The notes under the pieces were generated by a model. That model was not told where the DNA came from and did no database searches. It worked only from the letters and a program-made list of their open reading frames with translations. A stretch of 64,000 bases of DNA. Source: Rubripirellula sp. GTDB lineage: Bacteria > Planctomycetota > Planctomycetia > Pirellulales > Pirellulaceae. Shown here in pieces: positions 46,597 through 63,556 of this stretch; the first letter of the stretch is position 1, and each line of letters opens with the position of its first letter. The DNA lies in the NCBI GenBank assembly GCA_029245125.1, contig JAQWPZ010000321.1, positions 1 through 64,000 of the forward strand, read 5' to 3'. Both the position numbers and the translations under genes were made by a program.

Positions 46597-47195
46597 TTTG
46601 CGTCCTGCTCCTTCACGTAAGCCTGCTGGTAAGCAAATTTGGACCGCAGAAAATCGGCTGGCTTCGTTTGAACACGTCGCAACCACATCGCCTGAACCGC
46701 GTTGTCTGAAGCGGCTTGTTCGGCGACAAGCTCCGTTTCCTGACCGCTCTGTGGTTTCTTATTGTCAAACACGATCTCGTCAGCACCGACTTTCTGATCC
46801 CCCAACTCTTCGCCAGTCTGTTCAGTCAGCTTGCCTCGCGCCGTTGCAAGTTGTCGATTCTCAAAAGCTTGGTTCCAGTCCGGATTGAGTTTCAACGCTT
46901 GATCATAACTGGTGACAGCATCCTCATACTTCCCAAGCATCAACAAGGCATTTCCCCGATTGAAGTATGCCTCTGCTGTCGATTGTTTTGAAAAGGCATC
47001 AGCCGCCAGCTTAAATTCACCCGCCCGGTACCACGCGGCCCCTTGCCACATCGGTTGCTCAAACGTTTCCGCCGCCAACTTAAACTCACCGCGGTTAAAA
47101 AACCGTTGACCTTGCTGATTAGGTGTCAACCAAAGACTAGCCCAAGTGATTGCGCTAGCCCAAGTGATTGCGGTGACAAATAGAAACGGCTTCAT
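46593..47195 (-). CDS. TPR protein of the MoxR/Bat operon (BatC/BatE-like)
   Basis: 200-residue exported or membrane-anchored tetratricopeptide protein. After an N-terminal hydrophobic segment come TPR units: RFFNRGEFKLAAETFEQ, WYRAGEFKLAADAFSK and A-Y-F-N-R-G-N-A-L-L-M-L-G-K-Y-E-D-A-V-T-S-Y-D-Q-A-L. The last matches the consensus very well. The C-terminal third is acidic and probably unstructured. Its start overlaps the upstream VWA gene (ATGA) and its end overlaps the BatD-like gene (GTGA). A perfect 18-bp duplication in the signal region makes A-I-T-W-A-S occur twice. It likely holds together the two VWA proteins and the BatD-like protein. Confidence 0.85.
   Translation of the reverse strand: MKPFLFVTAITWASAITWASLWLTPNQQGQRFFNRGEFKLAAETFEQPMWQGAAWYRAGEFKLAADAFSKQSTAEAYFNRGNALLMLGKYEDAVTSYDQALKLNPDWNQAFENRQLATARGKLTEQTGEELGDQKVGADEIVFDNKKPQSGQETELVAEQAASDNAVQAMWLRRVQTKPADFLRSKFAYQQAYVKEQDAK
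47137..47172 (-). repeat. Perfect 18-bp duplication inside the TPR gene's signal sequence
   Basis: CTAGCCCAAGTGATTGCG occurs at 47137-47154 and again, identically, at 47155-47172. It keeps the frame and repeats A-I-T-W-A-S in the signal/anchor helix, lengthening it by six residues. Perfect identity suggests a recent event. Confidence 0.92.
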
Positions 47196-48127
47196 TCGCT
47201 TTGCTCCGATTGATTCCGTGATTCACGACGAAACGAAAACGCGGTGATCAATGCAATTGGCAACACCAAGTAATAGCCCGCCTCTTGCCAACGATCAGTG
47301 GCGCCTGCTGTACCGGTGATTGCGTAACTCGCAGCAGCCTTCGTGATTGCGATGACATCTCCGTCATCGATTGTCGCAGAAAGCACCGTGCCGCCTAGCA
47401 AATCGCTCGCCTGCAACAGTGATGCAAACTCAGAATTTTCTTCATTGGTTACCGCCAGAAATTGAATGGGGAACCGATTCGTCTCTTGGTAAGCGTTAAC
47501 TACCCGCGGCACATCAGCAACGGAATCAGCAATCACCAAAATCGAACCCCCGTTATCAGATTTGGATAACAACGCGTTTGCTTCGGTTAATGCAAGATCA
47601 AGCCGATCCCCCGGCACCGGCATAATGACGGAACTCACCTCCGTCGCCATCGATGCAACAACCGCGGTGTCAACCGTGGGTGGGAGCACGAGGTGCGAAG
47701 ATCCCGCATAGGCAATCAAACCCATCGGCTCACCCTTCCGCACCTCAGCCAGATCAGCCAACTTCAGGTGTGCCCTTTCAATGATCGACGGAGCGGGCAC
47801 TGGCCGATCCATTGATGCATCTGCTTTCAACAGAACCATTAAAGGCGCGGCGTCGCCGGCAAATGGATTGGGCTCGGGACGCCACGTCGGTCCTGCGATG
47901 GCCACCGCTGCCAGCAGCCAGACAATCAGCAGCAACCGAACTCGATCGTTGCGTCGTGCAGGACGACCAAGGACGAGTGCATCGAGCAACTCCGGAACCA
48001 CCTGTCGCCGCCAACCACGCAGCGGATCCATCTGCTTTCGCCAAAACCACCAGACGGTGATCGTCAACGGAATCAACAGCAACCATGCGGGTCGAATGAA
48101 GTGAAAATTTGAAATTGCATTGATCAA
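47192..48127 (-). CDS. VWA-type membrane protein with degenerate metal site (BatB-like)
   Basis: 311 residues. There are membrane helices near 13-29 (WLLLIPLTITVWWFW), 64-80 and close to the C-terminus (YYLVLPIALITAFSF), with a von Willebrand A-like domain between. The metal-site motif is K-A-D103-A-S105-M-D107 in place of D-x-S-x-S, so the third ligand position holds Asp instead of Ser. The start is TTG at 48127, overlapping the stop codon of the preceding VWA gene as TTGA; no in-frame ATG is nearby. It belongs to the MoxR operon and pairs with the intact VWA protein upstream, as BatA and BatB do. Confidence 0.82.
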   Translation of the reverse strand: MINAISNFHFIRPAWLLLIPLTITVWWFWRKQMDPLRGWRRQVVPELLDALVLGRPARRNDRVRLLLIVWLLAAVAIAGPTWRPEPNPFAGDAAPLMVLLKADASMDRPVPAPSIIERAHLKLADLAEVRKGEPMGLIAYAGSSHLVLPPTVDTAVVASMATEVSSVIMPVPGDRLDLALTEANALLSKSDNGGSILVIADSVADVPRVVNAYQETNRFPIQFLAVTNEENSEFASLLQASDLLGGTVLSATIDDGDVIAITKAAASYAITGTAGATDRWQEAGYYLVLPIALITAFSFRRESRNQSEQSE

Positions 48128-49155
48128 GGCGTCACCTCCAACTTACCAGTTGCCGCATTGACACGAACTCTTTCTGGCACAGCAGTCGCAGCCCGTTCAC
48201 GGGTGCGTGAGATCGCAATCCAGGCCTTTTCAACAACCGAAACGACGAGTGCCAACAGCAGGACCCAGTGATACAAGTCGTGACGGGGCCGATGGCTGAT
48301 CGTTTTCACCTGGCGAGTTTCAAGCTCGTCCAGCTTCTCGTAGATACCCTCCAATTCCTCACGATTCGCCGCGTAAAAATAGTTCCCATCCGCAGTGGAC
48401 GCGACCTCTTTCAACAGCTCGACATCGAGCTGCTCTTCACCCACCGTCGTTGGGTCACCGACTGCCACGGTATGTATGCGGATGCCGCGTTGGCTGGCAA
48501 CGCGACTCGCCTCCACGGGAGGCACTTGGCTCTTCGTATCATTGCCATCGGTCAGGGCAATGATTGTCTTGGCTGGCGAATCACTGTTGGCAAACAAGTT
48601 CACGCCGAGCCCAATGGCATCACCAAAAGCAGTCCGTGGCCCGGCCATGCCAACGGCACACTGCTCAAGCAATTGCCGTGACAGATCAAGGTCGGTCGAG
48701 AAGGGTGCCTGCAGATAGGGCGCATCACCAAACACCACCAAACCGACGCGATCTCCCTTGCGGCGCACCAAGAAGTCACCAACGACCTCTTTGACGGCGG
48801 TCAATCGATCAACCGTGTTTCCCTCGCGATCTGTGAAATCCTCATGCTGCATCGAACCGGAAAGATCAACCAGCAACAGCAAATCACGCGTGGGCAAATC
48901 CTTCGTCACTGGCGGCTCAATCTCCTGGGGTCGCGCGAGGGCAACCAAACAGAGCAACCAGACCAATGCAGGTACGGCCCATGCGAAATGACGGCGCACG
49001 GGAATGCCGCCGCCACCTTTGCAAGATTCCACAACCCGACTACCAAAAGGAATTCGGACTGACACGTCCGGGCGGCGCATTGGCGGCATCAGCACGCGGA
49101 GAACCCACGGGCAGGGAAATAGCACAAACATCCACGGATAGGCGAATGAAATCAT
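48124..49155 (-). CDS. VWA-domain membrane protein (BatA-like)
   Basis: 343 residues with an N-terminal helix pair (5-24 and 59-74), a von Willebrand A domain at about 90-280 and a C-terminal helix at about 296-314. The metal-ion-dependent adhesion site is intact: D97-L-S99-G-S101, later M-A-G-P-R-T-A-F-G-D-A-I-G-L with the Thr, and A-L-T-D-G-N-D-T with the Asp. It resembles BatA of the Bacteroides aerotolerance operon. It lies 39 bp downstream of the DUF4381 gene and overlaps the next VWA gene. MoxR-type ATPases are thought to act on such VWA proteins, so the pair probably works as a chaperone-like or envelope-stress unit. Confidence 0.9.
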   Translation of the reverse strand: MISFAYPWMFVLFPCPWVLRVLMPPMRRPDVSVRIPFGSRVVESCKGGGGIPVRRHFAWAVPALVWLLCLVALARPQEIEPPVTKDLPTRDLLLLVDLSGSMQHEDFTDREGNTVDRLTAVKEVVGDFLVRRKGDRVGLVVFGDAPYLQAPFSTDLDLSRQLLEQCAVGMAGPRTAFGDAIGLGVNLFANSDSPAKTIIALTDGNDTKSQVPPVEASRVASQRGIRIHTVAVGDPTTVGEEQLDVELLKEVASTADGNYFYAANREELEGIYEKLDELETRQVKTISHRPRHDLYHWVLLLALVVSVVEKAWIAISRTRERAATAVPERVRVNAATGKLEVTP

Positions 49156-49194
49156 CCCGGCACAGCGTTTTCGAATGGTTGCATTGAATCCATG

Positions 49195-49662
49195 CTAGGT
49201 TTCTGACTCGGTGGAATCTGGATGCCTCTGAATCCAATCCGACGCATACTGCCGAAGAGCGGACAGGTCGTCAGCGGACGAAGGTCGCTCATACACTCCC
49301 TTGATCAACTGCTCGCGGACAGATTCTGGCATTGGCACATCAACTCGTTTCACCAACCAATCAACCCACTCACCGCCACCGAGCGTGGCGATCGTCGTGC
49401 GTGGCGAACAAGCTAGAGCAGCCCGTCGAAGCAGTTGCCCGATCGCCAGAACTGAGTCTGCCTGGGCAAGTTCACGTACCGCTGCCCTGCGATAGGCGTT
49501 GGAATGCCAGCGATTCCAAAGTCGGTACATCACCCCAGCAATCACCAGCAAAGCGAAGATCGCGATGACGTACCAAACTGGCGTTGGTGGCCACCAGGGT
49601 ATGGGATCGGGCACGACAATGTCGTGCAGGCGATCGAGACTGGTGGGATCGGTATTATTCAC
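49195..49662 (-). CDS. DUF4381 small membrane protein
   Basis: 155 residues with one strong membrane helix at about 28-46 (VWYVIAIFALLVIAGVMYRLW) after a Pro/Trp-rich stretch (PIPWWPPTPVW), which is typical of DUF4381 proteins found between DUF58 and VWA genes. The cytoplasmic part is helical (RRAAVRELAQADSVLAIGQLLRR, W-V-D-W-L-V-K). The start is GTG at 49662; no clear ribosome site is visible and the gap to the upstream stop codon is 15 bp. Family function is unknown, but its position in MoxR operons is conserved. Confidence 0.82.
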   Translation of the reverse strand: MNNTDPTSLDRLHDIVVPDPIPWWPPTPVWYVIAIFALLVIAGVMYRLWNRWHSNAYRRAAVRELAQADSVLAIGQLLRRAALACSPRTTIATLGGGEWVDWLVKRVDVPMPESVREQLIKGVYERPSSADDLSALRQYASDWIQRHPDSTESET

Positions 49663-49677
49663 GACCGAAGCTTGCTG

Positions 49678-50610
49678 TTAGACGGAAACCCGATGACCAA
49701 AAAGCTCTCGAATTTGATCGCTGACTGGATCAGAAGTGGAGATTGGCAGTACGGGAACTTTTATGGTGTGGAAAATTTTCGTCCATTCATCGAGCCGGCG
49801 CTGGAACGATTGCCGAAAAGCCTCCGCAAATTTTCGATCACGGGGGATCTCGATAATCTCACCTCGATCATTCGCGAGCATATCAGCATCACCCACAAGC
49901 GATGCTCCAAGTGGATCATAGACGGCAACCACCAGAATGTCGTTGTGAGCGGCCAAGCGAGTCGCTAATTCCCGCGTGCGTTCATTCGCCCCATCAAGAT
50001 CACTAACCAGAACCACTAAGTGGTCATGTTTCGCACATTGCAGCACACGCTCCAAAACATCATTGATAGTTATCGATCCCACCGGCGGATCTGCCGCGGC
50101 AAGTCGATGATTCAGCCGAACAACCTCTTGTAGAAGATGAAGCACTCGTGTTTGACTTCGATGCGGCCGCACTAAAACGACTTCGGATTCGTTAAACACA
50201 ACACCACCAACCCGATCACCGGCATCAAGTGTACGCCAAGCACCTAACGCTGTCGCTTCCGCAGCGGCCACTGATTTCATTGCTCGCCGACTGCCAAAAA
50301 ACATCGGCGATCGTTGATCCACCACGAACAGCACCGGCCGTTCACGCTCTTCATCGTAGGTTCGCACATAGGGCGACCTGAGCCGCGCCGTTGCTTTCCA
50401 ATCAATGGTTCGAATGTCATCACCTTGCTGGTAATGCCGCAACTCCCGAAAGGAAAGTCCACGGCCACGCAGTCGCGAAGCATGACGCCCCGCCAAGAGT
50501 GAATGAACCGGCTGCCTCGGCAGAAACGAGAAGCCTCTCGCATCTGCCTTCAGCATGACCAGATCGTCAATGTCGATTGTAATGTGGGCTGGCATGGGTA
50601 TTCGACTCAC
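49678..50610 (-). CDS. DUF58 protein of the MoxR operon
   Basis: 310-residue DUF58 protein, which has a VWA-like fold and is the usual companion of MoxR. The family block is clear at 41-77: G-R-H-A-S-R-L-R-G-R-G-L-S-F-R-E-L-R followed by Y-Q-Q-G-D-D-I-R-T-I-D-W-K-A-T-A-R. The VWA-like part begins F-V-V-D-Q-R-S-P-M. The GTG at 50610 overlaps the MoxR stop codon (GTGA); an in-frame ATG five codons later is an alternative. It is cytoplasmic, with no membrane helix, and probably a partner or substrate of the MoxR ATPase. Confidence 0.92.
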   Translation of the reverse strand: MSRIPMPAHITIDIDDLVMLKADARGFSFLPRQPVHSLLAGRHASRLRGRGLSFRELRHYQQGDDIRTIDWKATARLRSPYVRTYDEERERPVLFVVDQRSPMFFGSRRAMKSVAAAEATALGAWRTLDAGDRVGGVVFNESEVVLVRPHRSQTRVLHLLQEVVRLNHRLAAADPPVGSITINDVLERVLQCAKHDHLVVLVSDLDGANERTRELATRLAAHNDILVVAVYDPLGASLVGDADMLANDRGEIIEIPRDRKFAEAFRQSFQRRLDEWTKIFHTIKVPVLPISTSDPVSDQIRELFGHRVSV

Positions 50611-51566
50611 ACAGAAACAACAACCTTGAGCACCTCATCAATCACACCTGTCCGCGTCACTCCGGCTGCCTCTGCTTCATAAGTGAGGTGAACACGGTGC
50701 GCCAGACAAGCAGGTGCAACTGCACGGATGTTCTCAGGTGACACAAACTCATTCCCTGCTAACCACGCATGAGCGCGAGCAGCCGCATCCAATGCAATCG
50801 TGCCACGAGGACTAGCCCCAAGCCGAATCCACTGTTCGAGATTACCACCGTAGCGACTCGGTTCTCTCGTCGCCATGATTAGATCAACCATGTATTGCTC
50901 AGCTGCTTCAGCGACATGAATTGCGTTGACTTCTTTACGTGCGGCGAAAATTGCTTCCTGAGGCGTCGCCTGCGGCTCTTCCACTTGTCCGGTTTTCTCA
51001 CCGCGCACCAAACGCAGAATCGCCAGCTCATTCTCGTCGGCAGGGTAGGGCACTTGAACGTACAGTAGAAACCGATCCATCTGGGCTTCGGGCAAGGGAT
51101 AAGTGCCTTCTTGCTCAATCGGATTCTGAGTTGCCAGGACGAGAAACAGCTCTGGCAAAGGGTGAGTTGTTCCCGCGACGGTGACTTGCCGCTCTTCCAT
51201 TGCCTCGAGTAATGCTGCCTGGACTTTTGCCGGCGCTCGATTGATTTCGTCAGCAAGCACAAGGTTCCCAAAGATCGGCCCGGACTGAAAATCAAAAGTC
51301 GATGTCTGATCCCGATAGATTTCCGAGCCAGTCACATCTGAAGGCAACAGATCTGGCGTGAATTGAATTCGACTGAAGTCACTTTCAACCAACTTCGAAA
51401 GCGTCTTGATGGAACGAGTTTTCGCAGTGCCTGGCAAGCCCTCCATTAACACATGACCATCCGCGAGCAGAGCGATCAACAACCGCTCCACAACCGCCTG
51501 CTGTCCCAGGACTGCAGCGTTCAGAGCCTCGCCGATCTTTAGAATCGATTCGTGATGTGAAGTCAT
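50607..51566 (-). CDS. MoxR-family AAA+ ATPase
   Basis: 319-residue AAA+ ATPase, first gene of a seven-gene overlapping operon. Walker A is G43-L-P-G-T-A-K-T50 and Walker B is L-V-L-A-D-E-I-N at about 102-109. L-A-T-Q-N-P-I-E-Q-E-G-T-Y-P-L-P-E-A-Q-M-D-R-F is the MoxR sensor-1/arginine-finger region, and the lid helices follow (LGASPRGTIALDAAARAHA). The ATG at 51566 is chosen over an in-frame TTG 12 codons upstream. MoxR proteins act as chaperones that mature or regulate VWA-domain complexes; here the targets should be the DUF58 and VWA proteins encoded just downstream. Confidence 0.95.
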   Translation of the reverse strand: MTSHHESILKIGEALNAAVLGQQAVVERLLIALLADGHVLMEGLPGTAKTRSIKTLSKLVESDFSRIQFTPDLLPSDVTGSEIYRDQTSTFDFQSGPIFGNLVLADEINRAPAKVQAALLEAMEERQVTVAGTTHPLPELFLVLATQNPIEQEGTYPLPEAQMDRFLLYVQVPYPADENELAILRLVRGEKTGQVEEPQATPQEAIFAARKEVNAIHVAEAAEQYMVDLIMATREPSRYGGNLEQWIRLGASPRGTIALDAAARAHAWLAGNEFVSPENIRAVAPACLAHRVHLTYEAEAAGVTRTGVIDEVLKVVVSV

Positions 51567-52013
51567 GGCTGTTATGTCCGCGAAGAAGTTTGCATTCCGC
51601 AACTCATCATTGATGATGCATCGTCAAGACGAGGTAGACAACCAGTCACTTTCCAACCGAGCCCATGCCGATTTCCGGAGAAGCTCAGCCCCGATCTACC
51701 AAGATTCCCGCCACCAGGGATTAAACACACGAATTCCTTCGCTCTAGGCCCAACAGTCTTTGTGGCTGAAAAAACTCCAAATCTTGCAAAACCCAGCACC
51801 CAGACCACCCAAATCATCGAGCCGTGATTTCGACTGAAGAGCTGCATTCGCTCCATTTTGCAAGGTATGTTGAACGAGAGACGCGGCGTGTGCGTTAATA
51901 AAACACCCGCTTTACCACCATATTGGAACCTCGCGACCGCGAGAGGACTCTAAGATGGAGCGTTTCACCCACGTCGATTGCCGCTCCCTGGAATGCTGCC
52001 GCCGAAGTTTATC
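51567..52013. other. Divergent region between moxR and the SnoaL-like gene
   Basis: About 450 bp holding the promoters of the MoxR operon and of the plus-strand pair. No gene, repeat or hairpin stands out by eye. Confidence 0.45.
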
Positions 52014-52922
52014 ATGCTAATGCACAAATATCGTTTCTTAATCGCGTTGCCCTGCTGGTTGTCACTGGGACTGAGCACGGTTTCCGGCCAAGAAGCCGAA
52101 TCAGCAGCGGAAAACCCGACTGCAGAAATTGAGAGCGCTATCGCAATGTATGCGGATGCGTTCAATTCGCGAGAACTCGAAAAACTGGCCAACTCCTGGA
52201 CTGAAAACGGTGTCTACATCAGCCGCGTCCACAGTGAGCGAGTTGACGGACGCGAGGCCATGACCGCGCAGTTCAAAACACTCTTCGAAAGCTCCGAAGA
52301 AGTGGGAAAACTAACTCTCCTGAGTGAGTCAATTGACTTTGTTTCACCTCGGGTGGCGGTCGAAACAGGGCGTGCCACCGTGGCCTATCAAGACCAAATC
52401 ACGGAAACCAGCTACGAAACTGTTTTTGTGAAAGATGGCGACAAATGGCTGATTGATCGCGTCACAGAACAAGAAACCCCTGCTACCCCGTTGCGGTACG
52501 AAAAGCTGAAAGGACTAGATTGGTTGATCGGCCAATGGGTCGACAACGGCGAAGGCTTTACAATCGAGATTGACTGCAACTGGACTTCCAACCAAACGTA
52601 TATCAGTCGCAAGTACTCGGTCACGACTTCGGATGGCGTAACATCATCCGGGCTGCAACTCATTGGCTGGGATCAGAAGCAGGAAAAAATTCGCAGCTGG
52701 CTATTCGACTCAGATGGTGGCTTCGTCAGTGGAGTCTGGACCCAGCGAGACAACAAATGGAAGGTACAATCCGTCGCCACTTTGGCAGATGGATCGGCCG
52801 GTTCCTTTGTCGGTGTCTTCCGACCCACGGACGATGGGAACTACACATGGCAAAAAATCAACCAAGTCATTGATGGTGAATTGTTACCCAATCTCGACGA
52901 AGTCACAGTGATCCGAAAATGA
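52014..52922 (+). CDS. SnoaL/DUF4440-like secreted protein
   Basis: Exported protein of about 302 residues. A signal peptide (HKYRFLIALPCWLSLGLS, ending near VSGQ) is followed by a SnoaL/DUF4440-type cone-shaped domain at about 35-155 (AIAMYADAFNSRELEKLANSW, G-R-E-A-M-T-A-Q-F, YETVFVKDGDKWLIDRV). A second beta-rich half (LDWLIGQWVDNGEG, LQLIGWDQKQEKIRSWLFDSDGGF) resembles lipocalin-like DUF1579 folds. ATGs at 52014 and 52020 are both possible; an earlier TTG at 51978 is unlikely. The stop codon overlaps the start of the repeat-rich gene as ATGA. The role is unknown; such domains bind small molecules or serve as scaffolds. Confidence 0.8.
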   Translation: MLMHKYRFLIALPCWLSLGLSTVSGQEAESAAENPTAEIESAIAMYADAFNSRELEKLANSWTENGVYISRVHSERVDGREAMTAQFKTLFESSEEVGKLTLLSESIDFVSPRVAVETGRATVAYQDQITETSYETVFVKDGDKWLIDRVTEQETPATPLRYEKLKGLDWLIGQWVDNGEGFTIEIDCNWTSNQTYISRKYSVTTSDGVTSSGLQLIGWDQKQEKIRSWLFDSDGGFVSGVWTQRDNKWKVQSVATLADGSAGSFVGVFRPTDDGNYTWQKINQVIDGELLPNLDEVTVIRK

Positions 52923-54553
52923 AACATTACCCTTCCATTGAAATAGGTGTTGGGATGAAGCGTTCCGAACGTTTCCTGTATGTCTTGGTGTGCGCCGCTT
53001 TAATGGTGTCACTGATCTGCAGTGATATCTGCCTAGCACAGCGCGGACGCGGTGGCGGAGGAAGAAGCCGAGGCGGTGGAGGCATGAGCCGCGGTGGTTC
53101 CAGCATGGGGCGATCAATGCCCTCTCGCTCACCATCGATCAATCGCTCACCGTCGATGAGCCGTCCCTCTTCCCGGCCCTCAATGCCCACATCACGGCCC
53201 TCGATGCCCACATCACGGCCGTCGACAGGAAGACCTTCTACCAGCAGACCGTCCACTGGAAGGCCTTCCACATTGCCCTCTACTGGAAGACCCTCTACTG
53301 GAAGACCCTCTACTGGAAGACCGTCTACTGGAAGACCGTCTACTGGAAGACCCTCTACATTGCCCTCTACCGGAAGACCCTCTACCGGAAGACCAGGTTT
53401 TCCGTCGGCTGGAGGTTCCGGGCGACCATCGCTTGGGACTCAACCTTCACGTGGACAACTAAATGATTTCTTGAATCTCAATCGGCCTACGACGCTACCA
53501 TCCAGCGGAGGAGGCGCAGCGCGAGACTTCCTCCAAAACCGACCTTCAACCAAACCCGCACCAGGAAATCGACCCTCCCTACGTCCCGAAACGGGGCGAC
53601 CAGGAATTGGGGATCGACCTGCTCAGCTTCCAGAGAATGGACGACCTGGCATTGGTGATCGACCTGGCATCGGTGATCGACCTGGCATTGGTGATCGACC
53701 TGGTATTGGTGATCGACCTGGTATTGGTGATCGACCCGGTATCGGTGATCGACCTGCTCAGCTTCCTGAAAATGGACGCCCCGGCTACCGACCACCCGGC
53801 TATCGACCCCCCGGCCACCGCCCCGGATACCGTCCGCCAAACTCTCGCCCACCGGGCTGGCGTCCACCGGGCGGTCGTCCACCGGGTTGGCGTCCACCCT
53901 ATTACCGACCTCCAGTGGTACTGCCTGTTTATGGCCGAGGCTACTGGGGCCGACACCCCAACTACCGCTGGGGCTGGGCCAACTATCCAAACAATAATTG
54001 GTGGGCTTGGGCTACCGCCGGTGCAGTGACAGGTTGGCTAGTGAGCACACCTTCACAACCGGTCTACTGTGATTACGGAACGACGATTTATTACGAGGGC
54101 GACGAGGTCTACTACGAAGGTGATGTGATCGCGACGGCTGATGAGTACGCGACTCAGGCCCAGGAAATCGCTGCTTCGGTACCAGAGGAAGTCGACACAG
54201 AAAAAGTGGAATGGCTACCGCTCGGGGTCTTCGCCCTGGGCTCCACCGATGAATCCTCGATCGAGGACGCCACCATGTTCCTTCAGTTAGCTGTCAGTAA
54301 AGAGGGGATCATTGCCGGGACATTCCAAAACCTGGCAACGAAAGACTCATTCGAAGTCGAGGGGATGGTGGATGAGAAATCCCAACGGGCTGCTTGGGGC
54401 CCAGTAGGCAAGTCCGCACCGATCATGGAGACTCAGCTTTACAACCTAACGGAAAATGAAGTGGGAGCCTTGGTACACTTCAAGGATGGTGAAACACAAC
54501 AGTGGACGTTGGTGAGAATGGACGAGCCTGAACAGGACTCGTCTGAGCGCTAG
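52919..54553 (+). CDS. Low-complexity secreted surface protein (RPSTG / GIGDRP repeats)
   Basis: 544 residues. A signal peptide (about 13-40) is followed by a Gly/Arg/Ser-rich stretch and then several families of short repeats: R-P-S-T-G (many copies), G-I-G-D-R-P (six in a row plus one apart, within a larger unit ending A-Q-L-P-E-N-G-R-P), and R-P-P-G-(Y/H). The C-terminal 220 residues are ordinary in composition: an aromatic segment (GYWGRHPNYRWGWANYPNN), a short hydrophobic helix (WAWATAGAVTGWL), Y-Y-E-G-D-E-V-Y-Y-E-G-D, and a beta domain with W-L-P-L-G-V-F-A-L. This C-terminal part is shared by planctomycete proteins often labelled 'mu-protocadherin-like'. It is probably anchored to or secreted at the cell surface, and is translated together with the preceding gene (ATGA overlap). 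Confidence 0.85.
   Translation: MKHYPSIEIGVGMKRSERFLYVLVCAALMVSLICSDICLAQRGRGGGGRSRGGGGMSRGGSSMGRSMPSRSPSINRSPSMSRPSSRPSMPTSRPSMPTSRPSTGRPSTSRPSTGRPSTLPSTGRPSTGRPSTGRPSTGRPSTGRPSTLPSTGRPSTGRPGFPSAGGSGRPSLGTQPSRGQLNDFLNLNRPTTLPSSGGGAARDFLQNRPSTKPAPGNRPSLRPETGRPGIGDRPAQLPENGRPGIGDRPGIGDRPGIGDRPGIGDRPGIGDRPGIGDRPAQLPENGRPGYRPPGYRPPGHRPGYRPPNSRPPGWRPPGGRPPGWRPPYYRPPVVLPVYGRGYWGRHPNYRWGWANYPNNNWWAWATAGAVTGWLVSTPSQPVYCDYGTTIYYEGDEVYYEGDVIATADEYATQAQEIAASVPEEVDTEKVEWLPLGVFALGSTDESSIEDATMFLQLAVSKEGIIAGTFQNLATKDSFEVEGMVDEKSQRAAWGPVGKSAPIMETQLYNLTENEVGALVHFKDGETQQWTLVRMDEPEQDSSER
53217..53395 (+). repeat. 15-bp coding tandem repeats (RPSTG)
   Basis: The unit TCTACTGGAAGACC(C/G) recurs in tandem, in its purest run from about 53279 to 53353. 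Variant copies, in which the central Thr-Gly is exchanged for Leu-Pro, flank this run. The near-identity of neighbouring copies at DNA level points to recent expansion rather than old protein repeats. Confidence 0.9.
53646..53753 (+). repeat. 18-bp coding tandem repeats (GIGDRP), six copies
   Basis: Six consecutive 18-bp units of the form CCTGGYATTGGTGATCGA encode G-I-G-D-R-P. They differ at only a few third positions. A seventh copy lies about 45 bp upstream inside a longer duplicated block. The array is likely to vary in length between strains. Confidence 0.9.
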
Positions 54554-54610: not shown

Positions 54611-56875
54611 ATGTCACAAACGCCCACAGTCCACCAATCGACAGGGCGTTGGCTTCCCAGCTTCAACACCATGATGCTGCTGGGCGTCCTCGCAGGTCTT
54701 GCCTGGGGCATCTTTTGGGGTGAGTCAGGCGCGTGGGTCGGATGGGCTGGCGACGCCTACATTGGACTGTTGCAGATGACAGTCCTGCCCTACGTGGTCT
54801 TGTCGCTCGTGCTCAATATCGGCCGGCTCTCCAAGGGCGAAAGTGGTCGTCTGGCCTGGATCTGCACGGCTACCATGCTGTTGCTTTGGCTGATCGCCCT
54901 CTGTGTTTTGATCGCCATGTCGTTTTGTTTTCCGGAATGGGAAGGCGGATCGTTCTTCAGCGTCACCATGTTTGACCAGCCCCAGCCGATGAATTGGCTG
55001 GCATTATTCATTCCCTCCAATTTCTTCGCTTCGCTAACCAATGAACTTGTACCAGCGGTCGTTCTCTTTTCGGTTGGCTTTGGCATTTCGCTGATGCTAA
55101 TCCCCAAGCGGGAATCGTTGCTCGACAACATTGAAATCATGGTGGAAGGACTGGGGAAGCTGAATCACATGGTGGTTCGAGTTGCACCCATTGGAATGTT
55201 CGCGATCGTGGCAAAATCAGCTGGGACAATCTCGCCATTCCAGTTTCAGTTGCTGCAAGGATACCTGCTGGTCTACGGAACAGCTTCCTTGCTGATCAGC
55301 CTATGGGTGTTCCCCTTACTAATTTCTTGCTGCACCCCTTTTTCCTACCGGGATGTGATGAGGGAAAGCCGCAGCGCACTGATCACCGCTTTTGTCATTG
55401 GAAACACCTTTGTCGTGATGCCAATGATTGCTGAAGCGGTCAATCGACTCACGCGACTCGCTATGGATGACCCTGATTCGAATGCTCCTACGGCCGGGTA
55501 CACGGTACAACTTGCTTACCCATTCCCTGACGCGGGTCGTATCATCGGGCTGATCTTTATCCCGTTTGCAGCTTGGTTTTATGGACTGGCGATTCCCCTC
55601 TCCGATAGCCTACCGCTGATCGGAACCGGCTTGCTTAGCTCATTCGCAAAACCAATCGTGACCATCCCAATGCTGTTGGATATGGCCCAAATCCCAACAG
55701 ACATATTCAATCTTTACCTTTCCGTTGGCGTTGTCGCAGCAAGGTTTGGGGATCTGATGAAAGCGATGAATCTATTCGCTTTTTCCGTCCTCACGGCCAG
55801 CTACCTGACCGGCATTTTCAATCTCAACATTCGCCGCATCGTCACGACCTTTGCTACCACAACAATCATGCTGCTGATCGGCATTGTTGGCATTCGCATC
55901 TTCCTCGAGAGGTCTTTCCAAGAGCAGTTTAGTCGCGATGACTTGACCATGTCGCGCAGCTTGCTGGCCCCACCCGTTGAATCCACCGTACTACCTAAGG
56001 CTGAAAGAAATCCGAGTGAGTTAGAACTGGGCGAGGATCGAATCGACCGAATCCTACGGAGAGGCGTCATACGAATTGGCTTCAACCCAGAGGAGCTGCC
56101 TTTCTGCTACTACAACGGCGAAGAAGACTTGGTTGGCTTCGACATGGACATGGCCAATCAGTTGGCACGCGACCTGAATGTCACCATTGAATTTGTGCCA
56201 ATCGAAGAGACCATCGTAGACAGTCTTCGAAAGGATCACTTTGACGTTGCGATGTCTCAATCCGAGGGAACGATTGGCAACGCGATCGCCTTGCCAGAAA
56301 TGAAATCGTATCTCCAAGTCACACAGGCCATCGTTGTTCCCGATTACCGACGCAAACAGTTTGACTCGCTCGAAAGCCTTCGCGAACAACTTGCCGAAAC
56401 ATCCAAACTCCGTGTCGCCTATGTCGCGCGAAGCATCGCTTCGGAAAACTTGCGGGACGAAATCCGCAATCTAGAACAATCCCCTGGACTTGGAACCGGA
56501 GCAGCAGCTGTAACGCGAGCTGGAATCACCTCCAAACTGGAGTTCGTCGAGGTGGCCAGTGAAAGAGAGTTCTTTGAAACAGGAAATGAAGTCGCCGACG
56601 TCTTGGTGACAAGCGCCGAGGTTGGTTCCGCCTGGACATTGAAATACCCGAATTACTCGGTCGTTCGGCCCGCAGGTTTGAGCACGCAAATCCCACTCTA
56701 TTACTATGTCGCCGAGGAGTCGCAATTCCAGGATTTCATCAATAGCTGGTTGGTCCTAAAAAAGTCGAATGGAACCATCGATCAACTATTCGAATACTGG
56801 ATTCTGGGACGCGATTCCAACCCCAAACCACCCCGATGGTGCGTCGCCCGTAATATCCTGGAGTGGATCGACTGA
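54611..56875 (+). CDS. SLC1-type dicarboxylate/amino-acid symporter fused to a solute-binding domain
   Basis: 754 residues in two parts. Residues 1-430 are a sodium/proton:dicarboxylate (DAACS) symporter with about eight hydrophobic helices and the family's re-entrant loops (L-L-Q-M-T-V-L-P-Y-V-V-L-S-L-V, A-P-I-G-M-F-A-I-V-A, F-V-I-G-N-T-F-V-V-M-P, T-I-P-M-L-L-D-M). Residues about 470-740 are an extracytoplasmic solute-binding domain of the family 3 type (G-V-I-R-I-G-F-N-P-E-E-L-P-F-C-Y-Y-N, D-L-V-G-F-D-M-D-M-A-N-Q-L-A, F-D-V-A-M-S-Q). A last hydrophobic helix (about 405-424) joins them, so the binding domain should face the periplasm. It probably imports acidic amino acids or dicarboxylates, the binding part acting as a built-in capture or sensing domain. 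Confidence 0.9.
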   Translation: MSQTPTVHQSTGRWLPSFNTMMLLGVLAGLAWGIFWGESGAWVGWAGDAYIGLLQMTVLPYVVLSLVLNIGRLSKGESGRLAWICTATMLLLWLIALCVLIAMSFCFPEWEGGSFFSVTMFDQPQPMNWLALFIPSNFFASLTNELVPAVVLFSVGFGISLMLIPKRESLLDNIEIMVEGLGKLNHMVVRVAPIGMFAIVAKSAGTISPFQFQLLQGYLLVYGTASLLISLWVFPLLISCCTPFSYRDVMRESRSALITAFVIGNTFVVMPMIAEAVNRLTRLAMDDPDSNAPTAGYTVQLAYPFPDAGRIIGLIFIPFAAWFYGLAIPLSDSLPLIGTGLLSSFAKPIVTIPMLLDMAQIPTDIFNLYLSVGVVAARFGDLMKAMNLFAFSVLTASYLTGIFNLNIRRIVTTFATTTIMLLIGIVGIRIFLERSFQEQFSRDDLTMSRSLLAPPVESTVLPKAERNPSELELGEDRIDRILRRGVIRIGFNPEELPFCYYNGEEDLVGFDMDMANQLARDLNVTIEFVPIEETIVDSLRKDHFDVAMSQSEGTIGNAIALPEMKSYLQVTQAIVVPDYRRKQFDSLESLREQLAETSKLRVAYVARSIASENLRDEIRNLEQSPGLGTGAAAVTRAGITSKLEFVEVASEREFFETGNEVADVLVTSAEVGSAWTLKYPNYSVVRPAGLSTQIPLYYYVAEESQFQDFINSWLVLKKSNGTIDQLFEYWILGRDSNPKPPRWCVARNILEWID

Positions 56876-57457: not shown

Positions 57458-59335
57458 ATGGCAAGTTCCTGTCCAGCCGTCGGAATCGATCTCGGGACAA
57501 GTCATTCGACTGTTGCTTATCTCGACTTCAATCAAAGACCCGAAACTCTGCGCAGCGCTGAGGGCGGCTTGACCACGCCAAGCGCAGTCTTCCTTGACCG
57601 ATCGGGGCCACTTGTGGGCTCAGAAGCTCAAGAGGCCGGCCGCGACGATCCCGAGCGGATGGTGCAACTGGGCAGACGAGATATCGAAGCCAATCGCAAC
57701 CATCCACCACACCACAGCCAGCTCATTCCACCGGAAGTTTGCCAAGCGCTGGTACTACGCAAACTCAAAGCTGATGCCGAACCGATCCTCGGCAAGCTTG
57801 ACACTGCGGTCTTGACGGTTCCAGCGTCCTTCACAGAACCACGCCGCAGTGCGACCAAGTTAGCCGGTCGATTGGCTGGCCTTGAAACGGTCGAGCTTAT
57901 CAACGAACCCATGGCAGCGGCACTTTGCTACGGCTTTCACAAACATCTACGCTCCACCAACGAACGCGATCAACAAACAGAACGCGTGCTGATCTATGAC
58001 CTGGGTGGTGGCAAGTTCGACGCGTCGATAGTCGAGATTCGCGGTAACGAATACAGCACGATCGCAACAGGCGGCGACGCTCAACTCGGCGGCATCGACT
58101 GGGATAGCAGAATTGCCGACTATCTAGCCGAACAGTGGATTGCGAAATTTGGCACCGACCCGCGAACCGAACCTGTGCCCGCGGAAGCCCTATTCCGGAA
58201 AGCCACACAAGCGAAACACGCGCTGTCACAACGACACTCCGTTGAAATTCCGTTCACACTCCATGGCCAGCGAATCCAACCAGAACTAACGCGACTGCGA
58301 CTTCAGAAGATCACCAAAGACCTCGTGACGCGAACGATGACCATTGCCCAGGACATACTCGATGAGGCAATGGTTGAATGGAGTGACTTGAACCGGGTCA
58401 TTATGATTGGGGGCTCGACCCGAATGCCCATCATTGGAGAGCGTTTATCACAATGGTCAGGAATTGAATGCGACGACTCCTTGCCGCGTGATGAAGCCGT
58501 CGCACAGGGCGCCGCAATCTACGCCGCGATATGTTTCCAACCTGAAGGCAACGGCTTCTCCGAATATTCAGTCAAAGACGTCAATTCATTTGATCTCAGC
58601 GTCTTAGCCAAAAACACAAAATCGGGACACTCTCAACGGCAAGTCATCATCCCCCGAAGCACCACCTTGCCCGCCAGCCGATCTGTTCGATTTCGCACAG
58701 ACCAAGACCATCAGACGAACCTGAAAGTTGAAATCATTGAAGGCGGAAACGACCAAGGACAGAATGCGATCAGGATCGGCAAAGGAATTGTTGAAGACCT
58801 TCCCAAAGACATTCCTAAAGGAACAACCGTCGACCTCCGTTTCAACTACGCACGCGACGGCGGCTTAAATTTTTACGCAAAACTGCCAGGATTGAACCAG
58901 CCTGTCAAAACGAGACTGGTGCCTGCCAACGGCATGTCCGATGAAACCTTCAGACGATGGAAACTAAAAATCAATGCCGGAGAAATCCAACAACCTGACG
59001 GCACCAACATTGAATCTGCCACTCCAGATAAGCCTCCACACTCCATCGTAAAACCGGCCCCAATTCCGGCGAGCACGCCATCGGCGAACGCACCAAATCG
59101 CAAAGCAAGCAAGCCCAAATACCACCCAGAAACACCCGGCACAAAACCTCTGCCGGGGATTGAGCGAAAGTTGCAACGTGTTACCGCAAAACGCGAAATC
59201 GTGACCGACACGTCCAAACCAAAATCGATAAAAAAACTGGTTCGTCAATCTGACAAATCGAAGATCGCGAAGCCACCCGGCGATTGGACGAATCGCCGCG
59301 AACCATTTGGAAAAGGAGAACAAGATGGTGCCTGA
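57458..59335 (+). CDS. Hsp70-like ATPase with altered catalytic residues and disordered tail
   Basis: 625 residues, starting at ATG 57458 directly before A-V-G-I-D-L-G-T-S-H-S-T, the first phosphate motif; an in-frame GTG (57443) adds five residues. Other actin-fold landmarks are L-T-V-P-A-S-F-T-E-P-R-R at 119, L-I-N-E-P-M-A-A-A-L at 147, G-G-I-D-W-D-S-R and G-G-S-T-R-M-P. The second phosphate motif reads D-L-G-G-G-K186-F-D: Lys replaces the Thr equivalent to DnaK Thr199. Around residues 71-75 (L-G-R-R-D) Arg appears where DnaK has catalytic Lys70. A beta substrate-binding domain remains (about 400-520), but the helical lid is replaced by a Pro/Lys-rich tail. It overlaps the next gene by 11 bp. 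It is probably a dedicated binding protein rather than a general folding chaperone. Confidence 0.88.
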   Translation: MASSCPAVGIDLGTSHSTVAYLDFNQRPETLRSAEGGLTTPSAVFLDRSGPLVGSEAQEAGRDDPERMVQLGRRDIEANRNHPPHHSQLIPPEVCQALVLRKLKADAEPILGKLDTAVLTVPASFTEPRRSATKLAGRLAGLETVELINEPMAAALCYGFHKHLRSTNERDQQTERVLIYDLGGGKFDASIVEIRGNEYSTIATGGDAQLGGIDWDSRIADYLAEQWIAKFGTDPRTEPVPAEALFRKATQAKHALSQRHSVEIPFTLHGQRIQPELTRLRLQKITKDLVTRTMTIAQDILDEAMVEWSDLNRVIMIGGSTRMPIIGERLSQWSGIECDDSLPRDEAVAQGAAIYAAICFQPEGNGFSEYSVKDVNSFDLSVLAKNTKSGHSQRQVIIPRSTTLPASRSVRFRTDQDHQTNLKVEIIEGGNDQGQNAIRIGKGIVEDLPKDIPKGTTVDLRFNYARDGGLNFYAKLPGLNQPVKTRLVPANGMSDETFRRWKLKINAGEIQQPDGTNIESATPDKPPHSIVKPAPIPASTPSANAPNRKASKPKYHPETPGTKPLPGIERKLQRVTAKREIVTDTSKPKSIKKLVRQSDKSKIAKPPGDWTNRREPFGKGEQDGA

Positions 59336-60752
59336 AAAAATTACCGTTTCCAATGGACGTGAGGCTTATCGCATCGACCCCACCGACTTGAACGAGGCAA
59401 CGCAAGACGGTTTCTACCGACCGTTCGACCATGGGCAGACGCTCGTTGGCAGAGACGACCTCATTTTCGAGATACCGATCAAGGACCTACCCTCGGCCAA
59501 GCAAAACGGCTTGCAGGATTTACTATCGGCGGAACGCCAAGCATGGCATCGCACGCAGTCAAGTGGAGCATCCACCAAGCCAGTCCAAGCCCCGATCGTG
59601 AGCCCAGTCCAAGCCCCAACTCCGAACGCTGGCGATGCTCACCCACCCTCTTCCAAGATCCTGTTAGCCGAACTCAGCCAAGCCGAACTCGAAGAACAAG
59701 AACGCCTGGAACAAGCCGAACACGAACTAGAGGAGACGACGGGATGGCGATGGCTCGCCGTTTGGCTACGCCAGAAATTTGAAGAGCGGCGTGTCGTCTT
59801 CACGCGGCATGCCCGCGGCACCGCGATCAGTGCAGTTGTACATGTCGCCCTGATTTTGATCCTGGCTAGCCTTATCTTGCAAACCAATGACGAGCCCAAG
59901 GGACTGGTTCTTACCTCTGCGCCTACCTCCGACAGTGTCATCGAGGAGGTCATCATCGAGCCCACTCCGCTCGAAATTTCCGAACCGACTGAAAGCACAG
60001 AAGCAGAAGCTCCAGCCGAAGCAGAGGTGGTAAAAGAAGAGACGGCTGCCTTGCCAGACTTCACCGGCGCGATCAAGGGCGACGCAATTAAGCCACCGTC
60101 ACGACCAAACGCGTCCGGAGCAGGCCAAGCGCGTCCCATGAAGCGCGCCAGCTTTTTCGGAAAACGCGTCTCCGCAGTTGACTATGTCTTCGTCATCGAC
60201 AATTCAAACAGCATGAGTGGTGGCCGATTTGAAACTGCTTTGAATGAGCTCATGATTGCCGTCAGCCAGCTCACAGCCAGACAGCGATTCTACGTAATTT
60301 TTTACAGCGACACCGCCTACCCAATGCTCCACCCTAACCCAGCGCAAAAACTTGTCCAAGCAACGCCTAAGAACAAAGAACTTTTGAGGTATTGGTTGGA
60401 AACCGTTCAACTCTGCTTGCAAACGAACGGCAAAGAAGCAATCACTGCCGCGTTCGCCCTACAGCCTGACGTTATCTTTGTGCTTGGCGATGGTGCATTC
60501 ACCGATGGTGCGTCAAACTACTTTGCCGGAAGGCCACAAAAGAAGATTCCGCTGCACACCCTCGGCATGGAAGTAAAACCGAAAGATGCCGTTTTGTTTG
60601 AGAAATTAGCAAAGGCACACGGCGGCACGTACAAAGATGTCGGGGTCGCACCCGGCGCGAAAGAAATGTCCAAAAAAAACCCCCGCCCACGTAATTCAAT
60701 GAAGGGACCTGTCTGGGGTTTGAAACTAAAACCCAAACCCAAACTTAAATAG
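59325..60752 (+). CDS. Membrane-anchored VWA-domain protein, partner of the Hsp70-like gene
   Basis: 475 residues. The ATG at 59325 has a good ribosome site (AAGGAG, 6 nt away) and lies inside the end of the Hsp70-like gene. The N-terminal ~70 residues form a small domain I do not recognise (I-T-V-S-N-G-R-E-A-Y-R-I-D-P, V-G-R-D-D-L-I-F). An acidic coiled segment follows (AELEEQERLEQAEHELEE), then one membrane helix at about 167-186 (AISAVVHVALILILASLIL), an acidic Glu/Pro-rich spacer, and a von Willebrand A domain from about 285 with an intact metal site, D292-N-S294-N-S296, and V-L-G-D-G-A-F-T-D-G. The C-terminal tail is strongly basic. The VWA domain should be outside the cytoplasm and the N-terminal domain inside, where it could meet the Hsp70-like protein. 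Confidence 0.8.
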   Translation: MVPEKITVSNGREAYRIDPTDLNEATQDGFYRPFDHGQTLVGRDDLIFEIPIKDLPSAKQNGLQDLLSAERQAWHRTQSSGASTKPVQAPIVSPVQAPTPNAGDAHPPSSKILLAELSQAELEEQERLEQAEHELEETTGWRWLAVWLRQKFEERRVVFTRHARGTAISAVVHVALILILASLILQTNDEPKGLVLTSAPTSDSVIEEVIIEPTPLEISEPTESTEAEAPAEAEVVKEETAALPDFTGAIKGDAIKPPSRPNASGAGQARPMKRASFFGKRVSAVDYVFVIDNSNSMSGGRFETALNELMIAVSQLTARQRFYVIFYSDTAYPMLHPNPAQKLVQATPKNKELLRYWLETVQLCLQTNGKEAITAAFALQPDVIFVLGDGAFTDGASNYFAGRPQKKIPLHTLGMEVKPKDAVLFEKLAKAHGGTYKDVGVAPGAKEMSKKNPRPRNSMKGPVWGLKLKPKPKLK

Positions 60753-60784
60753 ACAACTCTGCTGCAGGCGAATTTGAAATTCAA

Positions 60785-63556
60785 ATGCTTGCTCGCCTTA
60801 TTCGCTCCGCGGCCATGCAACCAGAGGCCGCGACTTCTTTTGTTCTAAAAACGACACTGGATATCCATGGCATGACGCACATTGGCCAATGCCCTCGCTG
60901 CCATGTCTCTTACGAATTGAATGAGGATGACATCGGTCACCTCGTCACATGCGAATGCGGTGCACTCCTATTTTGTGGGCACATCACGTCGACAGCATTG
61001 ATCGATGTGGTATGCGAACTGTGTCATGAGGTCTACGAAATACCTGGCTCGGACGCTGGAGTCGCTGTCGAATGCGAATGCGGCAACTGCTTCACCGTCC
61101 CGACCATCCTGCTGCGACAACCGGTGCATTCCAACCAAGGAACAGCAACACCAAACGGCGGCCAGGCCCAAACAAACAAACCGACCACCAACCAAGCCCA
61201 AACAAAGCAACAACCACCCGCACAGACGCCACCCGCAACGAAGACAAAGACCAATGACAAGTTGCCACAACCGGCAGGTCCTCTGGCAATCGACACCTCC
61301 GAGCCAACCACCAACGCCGAAAAAAACCACTCCGAGCGCCTACCTGCCAAGAGTCGCAACAAAGATCCACTGTCGTTATTCGGTCTCGCAGCAGTCGCAA
61401 TCCTGCTGATTGTCGCCCTCGCAATGTTCGCTCGACAACACCTTTTTTCACCCACGTCAGACAAATCGAAAAATCTTACTACTGACCCCCAAACAAAGAC
61501 ACCATCATCTCCCACCACTGAAGCAACTTTGCCGGCTGCAATCACCAATGAGGATTTACAGGCCTTGAGTGGAGGCTCTACTTCCGAGATCGCGGTTCCA
61601 TTGATTGAAGTTTCACTCCCAGAAACTGCGCCGATCATTGAGGAATCAGTTCAGGCAAATAACGGATCTGGAAGCGATAGCCATGGAACCACGGAATCTG
61701 CGAACAACTTCCCAACACCGCCGGCTCCGCTGTATGCACTCCCCAAGCCACAGACACCACGACCACGGATTCCGATCTCGACAGACCCACAACCCTACAT
61801 GACGCTTCGCTCGGGCGTTGAAGATGCGTTTGACGCGTACGAGGAGACCATGGAACTCCTGACAATAGCGGAGGAAACCAAATCAGATACAGACCACGCT
61901 GCCTACAAGCAGTCGATGGGCCGCACACTCGCACTCCTTCACCACGTTCATAGCTTGGCAGCGCAGGCAAACGACACCGAACAGGTCAACAGCATGCGTT
62001 ACTTATTGGCTTACCTGTCTTATAGTGCCGGCCACCTGCCTGAAGCCATCGTCATGGGCCAAGCCGTTGCTCGCTGGGGTACCCTCGACGACCCAGCCAC
62101 CAAGGAAGCCGCAATGATTGCCTTAGCAGCTGCCCAAGAAGCAAGCGATACGCAGTGGGGTAGCAAAGATCAGGTAGGAGAATTGGCCATGATGCAATCC
62201 GTTGCTGAGGTCATTGCGGATCGCTGGCCAAAGGACGAACAGTTGGATTCGATCTGGATGAACCTTGGATACCTTTACGAGGCTTACAACCTGCCCAAAA
62301 GGGCAGTCGAAATCTACGGCCGGCTACCGGCAAAATCAAACCAATATGCTGATGCGCAAGTCGCATCCGGCATGGCCGTTTGGCGGATGGCCCGCCGTCA
62401 AGCAATCAACGAAGCGACATCGATCGAACGCACTTCACTACAGCAGGCTCAACAGATGCTGAAACGAGGACTGCGTACGGCCGAGAAATCTGAATCACCG
62501 CTTGATGAACGCGTCATCGGTGTGCGACTTGCGCTCGCTCAGATTGCATTATTAAAAAACCAGCCTCAGGACGCAAAACAGTTGCTTACCGTCAATGAAA
62601 AACCAATCATCGACCAGATTCGTTTAGACGACGCCCCAAAAAAGAAAGGGCACATAGTGGTCAGTGAATATACCACCAAACAACTTTTTGACGCGTTGTA
62701 TTACACGCACCTTCAACTCGGAGATTCTGCGGCCGCCAATCAGACACTCGAACAGCTTGTCGCGACGATCGATTCGGTTGAAATTGACTTAGAGGCAAGA
62801 TTAGTATCGACGGTAAAAAAGGCTGCTGATCGCCTGAAGGCAAAACCAGCCATCACAAGCCAAGACATTGACCAGTTTGCCGAACTCGCCCAACCGATCA
62901 TGGATGACGAGCAGCATTTCCCAACGGAAAACTTGCTCTGGCTCGGTGAAACCTGGGGACGAATTTCCGATCAAGCAAACGATACAACAACTAGCAAACG
63001 GTGTGCTGCGGAGGGAGCCACGATTTACAAACTCGCGATGTCTCGCACCGATTTCCCCCCGGCATCTATACAATCGGCGCAGCTTCGACGAATTGAACTC
63101 CTCCGCAAATCGGGGAATCTTGCTGAAGCCATTCAAACGATTGAAAAGGTATTGGGCAAAACCCCCAACATCTTCTCACTGCAAATTGCAGCCGCTCAAT
63201 CGCTGCAAGATCTTGGAGTCGCATCGGGCAAAGTGTCAGATGTACAGGCCGCGATCGACGGACCAACTGGATTTTCATCAATTTGGGGATGGGGAAAACT
63301 CGTCAGCACCCTCTACACCGCTCGCTGGTCGGCTTCGGGCACCGATACCCATGCAACCCAACTTTTCCTGGCACAGTTCAACTTGGCACAATGCCAGATG
63401 CTCGTAGCGAAGCAAACCAAGGACAGCGTTGCCCGTCGACTTCAACTCACCGAAATCGAACGATCACTGCAAAGAATTTTGGCGACAATGGACGACTCAA
63501 ATCCCTGGGAAGCAAAGTTCCAACAACTCTCTGCACTAGTGAAGAACCAGCGATGA
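60785..63556 (+). CDS. Double zinc-ribbon, membrane, TPR-rich protein
   Basis: Up to 923 residues. Near the N-terminus two zinc ribbons with identical spacing follow each other: C36-x2-C39-x16-C56-x-C58 and C77-x2-C80-x16-C97-x-C99. A long Gln/Thr/Pro-rich linker leads to a membrane helix at about 198-222 (LFGLAAVAILLIVALAMFA), a second low-complexity stretch, and from about 340 to the end a helical solenoid with TPR-like units (NLGYLYEAYNLPKRAVEIYGRL, LRKSGNLAEAIQTIEKVLGKTPN). The ATG at 60872, six codons before the first Cys, is a good alternative start. It lies 32 bp after the VWA gene on the same strand. The topology is the same as that of the VWA protein: a sensor-like cytoplasmic head and a large outer part. 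The function is unknown. Confidence 0.8.
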   Translation: MLARLIRSAAMQPEAATSFVLKTTLDIHGMTHIGQCPRCHVSYELNEDDIGHLVTCECGALLFCGHITSTALIDVVCELCHEVYEIPGSDAGVAVECECGNCFTVPTILLRQPVHSNQGTATPNGGQAQTNKPTTNQAQTKQQPPAQTPPATKTKTNDKLPQPAGPLAIDTSEPTTNAEKNHSERLPAKSRNKDPLSLFGLAAVAILLIVALAMFARQHLFSPTSDKSKNLTTDPQTKTPSSPTTEATLPAAITNEDLQALSGGSTSEIAVPLIEVSLPETAPIIEESVQANNGSGSDSHGTTESANNFPTPPAPLYALPKPQTPRPRIPISTDPQPYMTLRSGVEDAFDAYEETMELLTIAEETKSDTDHAAYKQSMGRTLALLHHVHSLAAQANDTEQVNSMRYLLAYLSYSAGHLPEAIVMGQAVARWGTLDDPATKEAAMIALAAAQEASDTQWGSKDQVGELAMMQSVAEVIADRWPKDEQLDSIWMNLGYLYEAYNLPKRAVEIYGRLPAKSNQYADAQVASGMAVWRMARRQAINEATSIERTSLQQAQQMLKRGLRTAEKSESPLDERVIGVRLALAQIALLKNQPQDAKQLLTVNEKPIIDQIRLDDAPKKKGHIVVSEYTTKQLFDALYYTHLQLGDSAAANQTLEQLVATIDSVEIDLEARLVSTVKKAADRLKAKPAITSQDIDQFAELAQPIMDDEQHFPTENLLWLGETWGRISDQANDTTTSKRCAAEGATIYKLAMSRTDFPPASIQSAQLRRIELLRKSGNLAEAIQTIEKVLGKTPNIFSLQIAAAQSLQDLGVASGKVSDVQAAIDGPTGFSSIWGWGKLVSTLYTARWSASGTDTHATQLFLAQFNLAQCQMLVAKQTKDSVARRLQLTEIERSLQRILATMDDSNPWEAKFQQLSALVKNQR

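Follow-up and report, generated by a model that had tools for sequence, protein, structure and literature searches.

A planctomycete cassette of Hsp70-like, membrane VWA and zinc-ribbon/TPR genes as a candidate variant of the proposed SHLS-type vWA force transducers

Proteins that join a von Willebrand factor A (vWA) domain to an SHLS-type transmembrane (TM) helix were proposed in 2025 as motor-driven force transducers, a class that is a prediction with no phenotype reported (PMC12204202). TonB and TolA bind their motors through the SHLS signature, a motor box has been described as well, and in PVC bacteria a TPR gene, tolQ and two tolR genes are associated with SHLS-vWA; since tolQ/tolR-like genes are "often" adjacent, their presence is typical of the class but does not strictly define it (PMC12204202). 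A comparable design is found in GltG and GltJ of Myxococcus gliding, which are modular, TolA/TonB-like single-TM proteins served by a TolQR-type motor (PMC5349195). Here we describe a three-gene cassette from Rubripirellula sp. whose core, a VWA protein and a zinc-ribbon/TPR protein, is probably a variant of this already published transducer class.

The cassette lies at 57458-63556 of the window, by which we mean the whole stretch of 64,000 nucleotides analysed, and consists of three consecutive open reading frames on the + strand, with the following features:

57458..59335, + strand: Hsp70-like gene, 625 aa (Pfam HSP70, 1.3e-90; aligned with orthologues and with the genome's own DnaK)
57674..57676, + strand: R73, at the alignment position of DnaK K70; most orthologues have Lys here, and the nearest relative shares the Arg of the window
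58013..58015, + strand: K186, at the alignment position of DnaK T199; all aligned orthologues have Thr
59325..60752, + strand: VWA gene, 475 aa, with head, linker, TM helix, acidic/Pro linker and predicted external VWA domain
59814..59885, + strand: TM helix region with S169-x3-H173, a signature of the TonB/TolA SHLS type
59898..59918, + strand: conserved KGLVLTS just after the TM helix, a candidate "motor box" strand
60180..60644, + strand: VWA domain with the MIDAS motif D292-N-S-N-S296
60872..63556, + strand: zinc-ribbon-TM-TPR gene, 894 aa with the start most likely corrected to 60872 (orthologue starts and AlphaFold2 model)
60872..61114, + strand: head of two zinc-ribbon-like units in tandem, the second of which is degenerate in most orthologues
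61385..61441, + strand: TM helix of the TPR protein, without SxxxH (AlphaFold2 model)
61805..63550, + strand: TPR solenoid, with homology to the exported TPR protein that TPR-TPR-ExbB-ExbD-ExbD operons encode

An earlier, sequence-only reading of this DNA had named the same three reading frames, and its list of parts and single-pass topology hold, given the Pfam matches to HSP70 and VWA and an AlphaFold2 model of the TPR protein. It was also right about the 11-bp overlap of the Hsp70 and VWA genes; AAGGAG stands upstream of the VWA gene ATG at 59325. The 32-bp gap that it placed before the third gene is probably wrong. Because the alignment of orthologues of the zinc-ribbon/TPR protein begins at residue 30 of the longer reading frame (start 60785), and because the nearest relative has AAG where the window has that ATG, the gene most likely starts at 60872, which makes the gap 119 bp. 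Elsewhere in the window, 54611-56875 encodes a sodium:dicarboxylate symporter (SDF) fused in a single reading frame with a family-3 solute-binding domain (754 aa), and 52919-54553 a low-complexity protein in which GRPST and GIGDRP recur, for which Pfam returns extensin-like repeats only.

Homologues were searched for in 99 relatives and the gene layouts were then read. Among the 22 genomes of the genus, 11 carry Hsp70, VWA and TPR genes in one order and on one strand (G000, G001, G002, G005, G006, G009, G011, G013, G016, G017 and G020, with the cassettes of G005 and G013, each divided between two contigs, included in the count), and this constancy argues that the cassette is not a product of chance. 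The three genes adjoin in 11 of the 15 loci with a VWA-TPR pair, so that they cannot be called rare neighbours. A class II ribonucleotide reductase gene lies near the cassette in eight of the 11 loci, and the remaining loci are flanked differently. In the other four VWA-TPR loci (G004, G012, G034 and G057) the pair occurs without an adjacent Hsp70 gene, the Hsp70 relative of G057 being about 480 kb away; conversely, in other genera no homologue of the VWA or TPR protein lies near the close Hsp70 relatives of the same subfamily. Because the pair and the Hsp70 thus each occur without the other, the VWA-TPR pair is the core and the Hsp70 a frequent addition. This rules out the Hsp70 as a defining member, and a cytoplasmic Hsp70 hub is not the centre of the system. 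A search of 119 genomes of the phylum for the cassette outside Pirellulales returned VWA-domain homologues only.

The Hsp70-like protein shares with DnaK a nucleotide-binding domain and a beta substrate-binding domain, which extend to about residue 505, but it has no recognisable alpha-lid (the Pfam match ends near 499), its interdomain linker is of an NVNS type where DnaK has VLLLD, and its score falls well short of the DnaK equivalog cut-offs. Its tail is rich in Pro and Lys and bears DWTNRR near the end; a DW-x2-RR-like motif occurs there in four copies including that of the window, i.e. in three orthologues, and most orthologues have longer, low-complexity tails. The catalytic residues of DnaK are altered in the window copy (K70R-like and T199K-like) and intact in most orthologues. 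By analogy with what is known of DnaK, the protein of this strain may bind nucleotide but hydrolyse it poorly.

In the VWA protein, Pfam recognises VWA_3/VWA_2 at about 2e-7, with DxSxS intact. Its alignment with orthologues shows a conserved cytoplasmic head (residues about 6-75), a conserved or invariant EPTPLE linker and an invariant MIDAS motif, and the charge pattern predicts that the VWA domain lies outside the membrane. The helix, AISAVVHVALILILASL, contains the S-x3-H signature, which is present in 59 of the 64 VWA homologues that have a TM helix compared with two of 223 other single-TM reading frames from the same loci (Fisher p ~1e-52, a value that counts related sequences singly and not independent events), and it is kept in homologues down to about 25-30% identity. 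Further along, L180 (+11) is invariant and a Ser stands at +13 (S182), whereas the final Ser of the TonB/TolA SHLS spacing is at +15. After the helix, in the stretch that is a candidate motor-box strand, K192, G193, V195 and S198 are invariant. The AlphaFold2 model of the protein is poor (pLDDT 40), with no confident modelling of the post-TM strand, and too poor for a fold search.

No ExbB or ExbD gene lies inside any cassette locus, and motor genes are therefore rejected as part of the cassette. Outside the order, the nearest VWA homologues include six loci from four genera (L201, L205, L206, L210, L213 and L216, three of them from one genus) in which ExbB-ExbD-ExbD stands directly beside the VWA gene or one or two genes away, and all six VWA proteins have S-x3-H. 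At the loci of Pirellulales VWA paralogues (L139-L178), ExbB was found in two of 40 within the stretch searched, and most Pirellulales S-x3-H VWA genes stand apart from motor genes. Likewise, in the Pirellulales TPR-ExbBD operons read, no VWA gene of the cassette type lies directly beside the motor. The genome of the window itself has nine ExbB and ten ExbD matches. One of its ExbD-like proteins (L135, G000:C68:52973-53374) has an N-terminal zinc-ribbon head and an acidic linker before its TM region, a style of head also seen in the cassette TPR protein. At L146:5225-8810 (G086), an ExbB gene is followed by a GYF/trypsin-like protein and then by a VWA gene whose TM helix lacks S-x3-H; this last protein is a possible member of the second vWA class, the one with TolQ only (PMC12204202).

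The Pfam matches of the third protein to TPR and zinc-ribbon families are weak and mostly below cut-off. In the AlphaFold2 model, residues 312-893 form a helical solenoid, modelled with confidence, and a single TM helix (172-190) is preceded by ribbon-like strands. The second zinc ribbon, with four Cys in the window, has only three in most orthologues. A profile HMM of the solenoid, searched against the set of reading frames, matched only the cassette orthologues and one TPR family of about 1050 aa, which is present in most relatives and heads a TPR-TPR-ExbB-ExbD-ExbD operon at 14 of 20 loci examined; the genome of the window has the same operon on C252. Aligned by hhalign, the cassette solenoid and this motor-operon TPR reach a probability of 100 (E 1.2e-53, 591 columns), compared with 21% and 3% for two other motor-operon TPR families. 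The TPR genes that follow ExbD in phylum-level operons are unconvincing as kin (hhalign probability 3%). In a reverse search of the window's genome a motor TPR protein matched its orthologue and a paralogue on C251 but missed the cassette TPR protein, so that the link rests on profile comparison. Given the specificity of this homology in both the HMM search and hhalign, the cassette TPR protein resembles a fusion in which a zinc-ribbon head and a TM helix precede the C-terminal portion of the motor-operon TPR. The hits of a fold search with the model were TPR solenoids of a generic kind, among them, with a low TM-score, a flagellar-motor scaffold of Campylobacter; we do not count them as evidence. 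The C251 paralogue of the motor-operon TPR protein (L179, about 1020 aa), the second in this genome, lies close to the end of its contig, and no ExbB or ExbD was seen there.

The S-x3-H helix, the motor adjacency of distant VWA homologues and the motor-operon homology of the TPR protein together lead us to read the pair as an SHLS-type derivative. We assign a probability of about 0.55 to the reading that an envelope-spanning force transducer, probably energised by a motor, has the VWA and zinc-ribbon/TPR proteins as its core. In such a device the docking site of the S-x3-H helix would be an ExbB/TolQ-like pentamer whose gene lies at another place in the genome, and the motor would set the external VWA (MIDAS) domain in motion or pull on it; this domain would transmit the force while binding and letting go of a target in the outer envelope. 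Such motors are accompanied by an exported TPR scaffold, of which the cassette TPR protein, presumably in contact with the VWA protein, would be a form anchored in the membrane, and the Hsp70-like protein might regulate the device or help to assemble it by acting on the cytoplasmic heads. A bolder version, in which an Hsp70-type switch in the cytoplasm controls, through the membrane, a pmf-driven VWA transducer and its TPR scaffold, we regard as unlikely; if it is true, mechanical work at the outer envelope of planctomycetes would be coupled to the state of a cytoplasmic chaperone. The Hsp70 link itself is supported by gene order. In any case, the S-x3-H signature is now extended, with a control, across a large planctomycete VWA family. 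The gene set is small, the origin of its TPR partner can be traced and it may include a protein that exerts control from the cytoplasm, so that the cassette could show what motor-driven vWA transducers do and whether a distantly encoded motor suffices.

The four pairs without an adjacent Hsp70, together with the close Hsp70 relatives that stand far from any VWA or TPR homologue, are also what one would find if the Hsp70 gene were a co-transcribed neighbour with a job of its own and only the VWA and TPR proteins worked together. Against this speak the order and strand kept in 11 genomes although the flanks differ, and the 11-bp overlap with the VWA gene in the window, and we consider such independence possible but on the unlikely side. 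The lack of motor genes at cassette loci would suit, instead, a static scaffold or adhesin platform in which the VWA and TPR proteins hold an outer-envelope complex and the helix signature is an inherited relic with no motor; scaffolding is typical of TPR solenoids, and VWA domains commonly mediate adhesion. A relic, however, would not be expected to persist in 59 of 64 homologues at such low identity, nor does a motorless platform sit well with distant VWA homologues in motor operons. The external adhesion or assembly platform put forward from the sequence alone is therefore conceivable, but these motor-linked homologies make it an unlikely choice and not the best-supported one.

An ATPase, a membrane VWA protein and a TPR protein are also the general parts of a Bat system, and a true Bat-type operon, with MoxR AAA, DUF58, two VWA and TPR genes, lies on the - strand of the window at about 45346-51602, some 6 kb upstream of the cassette and unrelated to it in layout. 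One might thus picture a Bat-like system for envelope protein quality or redox, with the Hsp70 in place of the MoxR ATPase, the VWA protein as co-chaperone and the TPR protein as adaptor. Yet the VWA domain is predicted to be external and the Hsp70 cytoplasmic, on opposite sides of the membrane, some loci have the pair with no Hsp70 gene next to it, the window Hsp70 is substituted at catalytic positions, the TPR homology points to motor operons, and neither MoxR nor DUF58 occurs beside the cassette, both lying in the separate operon; we find this reading improbable. The mixture of HSP70, TPR, vWA and zinc ribbons also recalls the GTPase-centred systems of biological conflict, in which these domains are combined (PMC7159879). 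A defence role has very little to commend it and was rejected, as PADLOC gave no match for any of the three proteins, and those neighbours in the window that were scanned with Pfam have no GTPase domain (TRAFAC component).

How far, then, does the motor-linked reading of the VWA-TPR pair depart from what has been described? The initial view that no named system has this makeup is borne out for the exact combination of Hsp70, VWA and zinc-ribbon/TPR, which a literature search, mostly of papers available without subscription, did not find described; it does not stand for the membrane proteins, both of which are homologous to motor-linked components, and SHLS-vWA with TPR and tolQ/tolR had been proposed in 2025. 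With the Bat operon, the cassette has a membrane VWA protein, a TPR protein and an ATPase in common, but there the ATPase is a MoxR AAA protein and DUF58 is present. GltG and GltJ, likened here by description, share the modular single-TM, TolA/TonB-like design, and GltJ has a cytoplasmic zinc finger; outside the membrane they carry TonB C-terminal motifs and not VWA or TPR, and no Hsp70 is involved. TonB and TolA share with the cassette VWA protein the S-x3-H helix and the order of TM helix, strand (a candidate in the cassette), linker and globular domain, whereas the cassette protein has a VWA as its C-terminal domain and about 160 residues before the helix. The motor-operon TPR protein of Pirellulales is homologous to the cassette TPR protein over its C-terminal ~590 residues, but its ~1050 aa begin with an apparent signal or hydrophobic segment where the cassette protein has zinc ribbons and a TM helix. 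The closest likeness is to the SHLS-type vWA transducers, with their single TM helix bearing S-x3-H, a strand after it (matched in the cassette by a candidate), an acidic/Pro linker, a C-terminal VWA domain and an associated TPR gene, and distant homologues of the cassette VWA protein stand beside ExbB-ExbD-ExbD. From these the cassette differs in that motor genes do not adjoin it, the VWA protein has an extra cytoplasmic head at its N terminus, the TPR partner is anchored in the membrane behind a zinc-ribbon head, and an Hsp70 gene stands in front.
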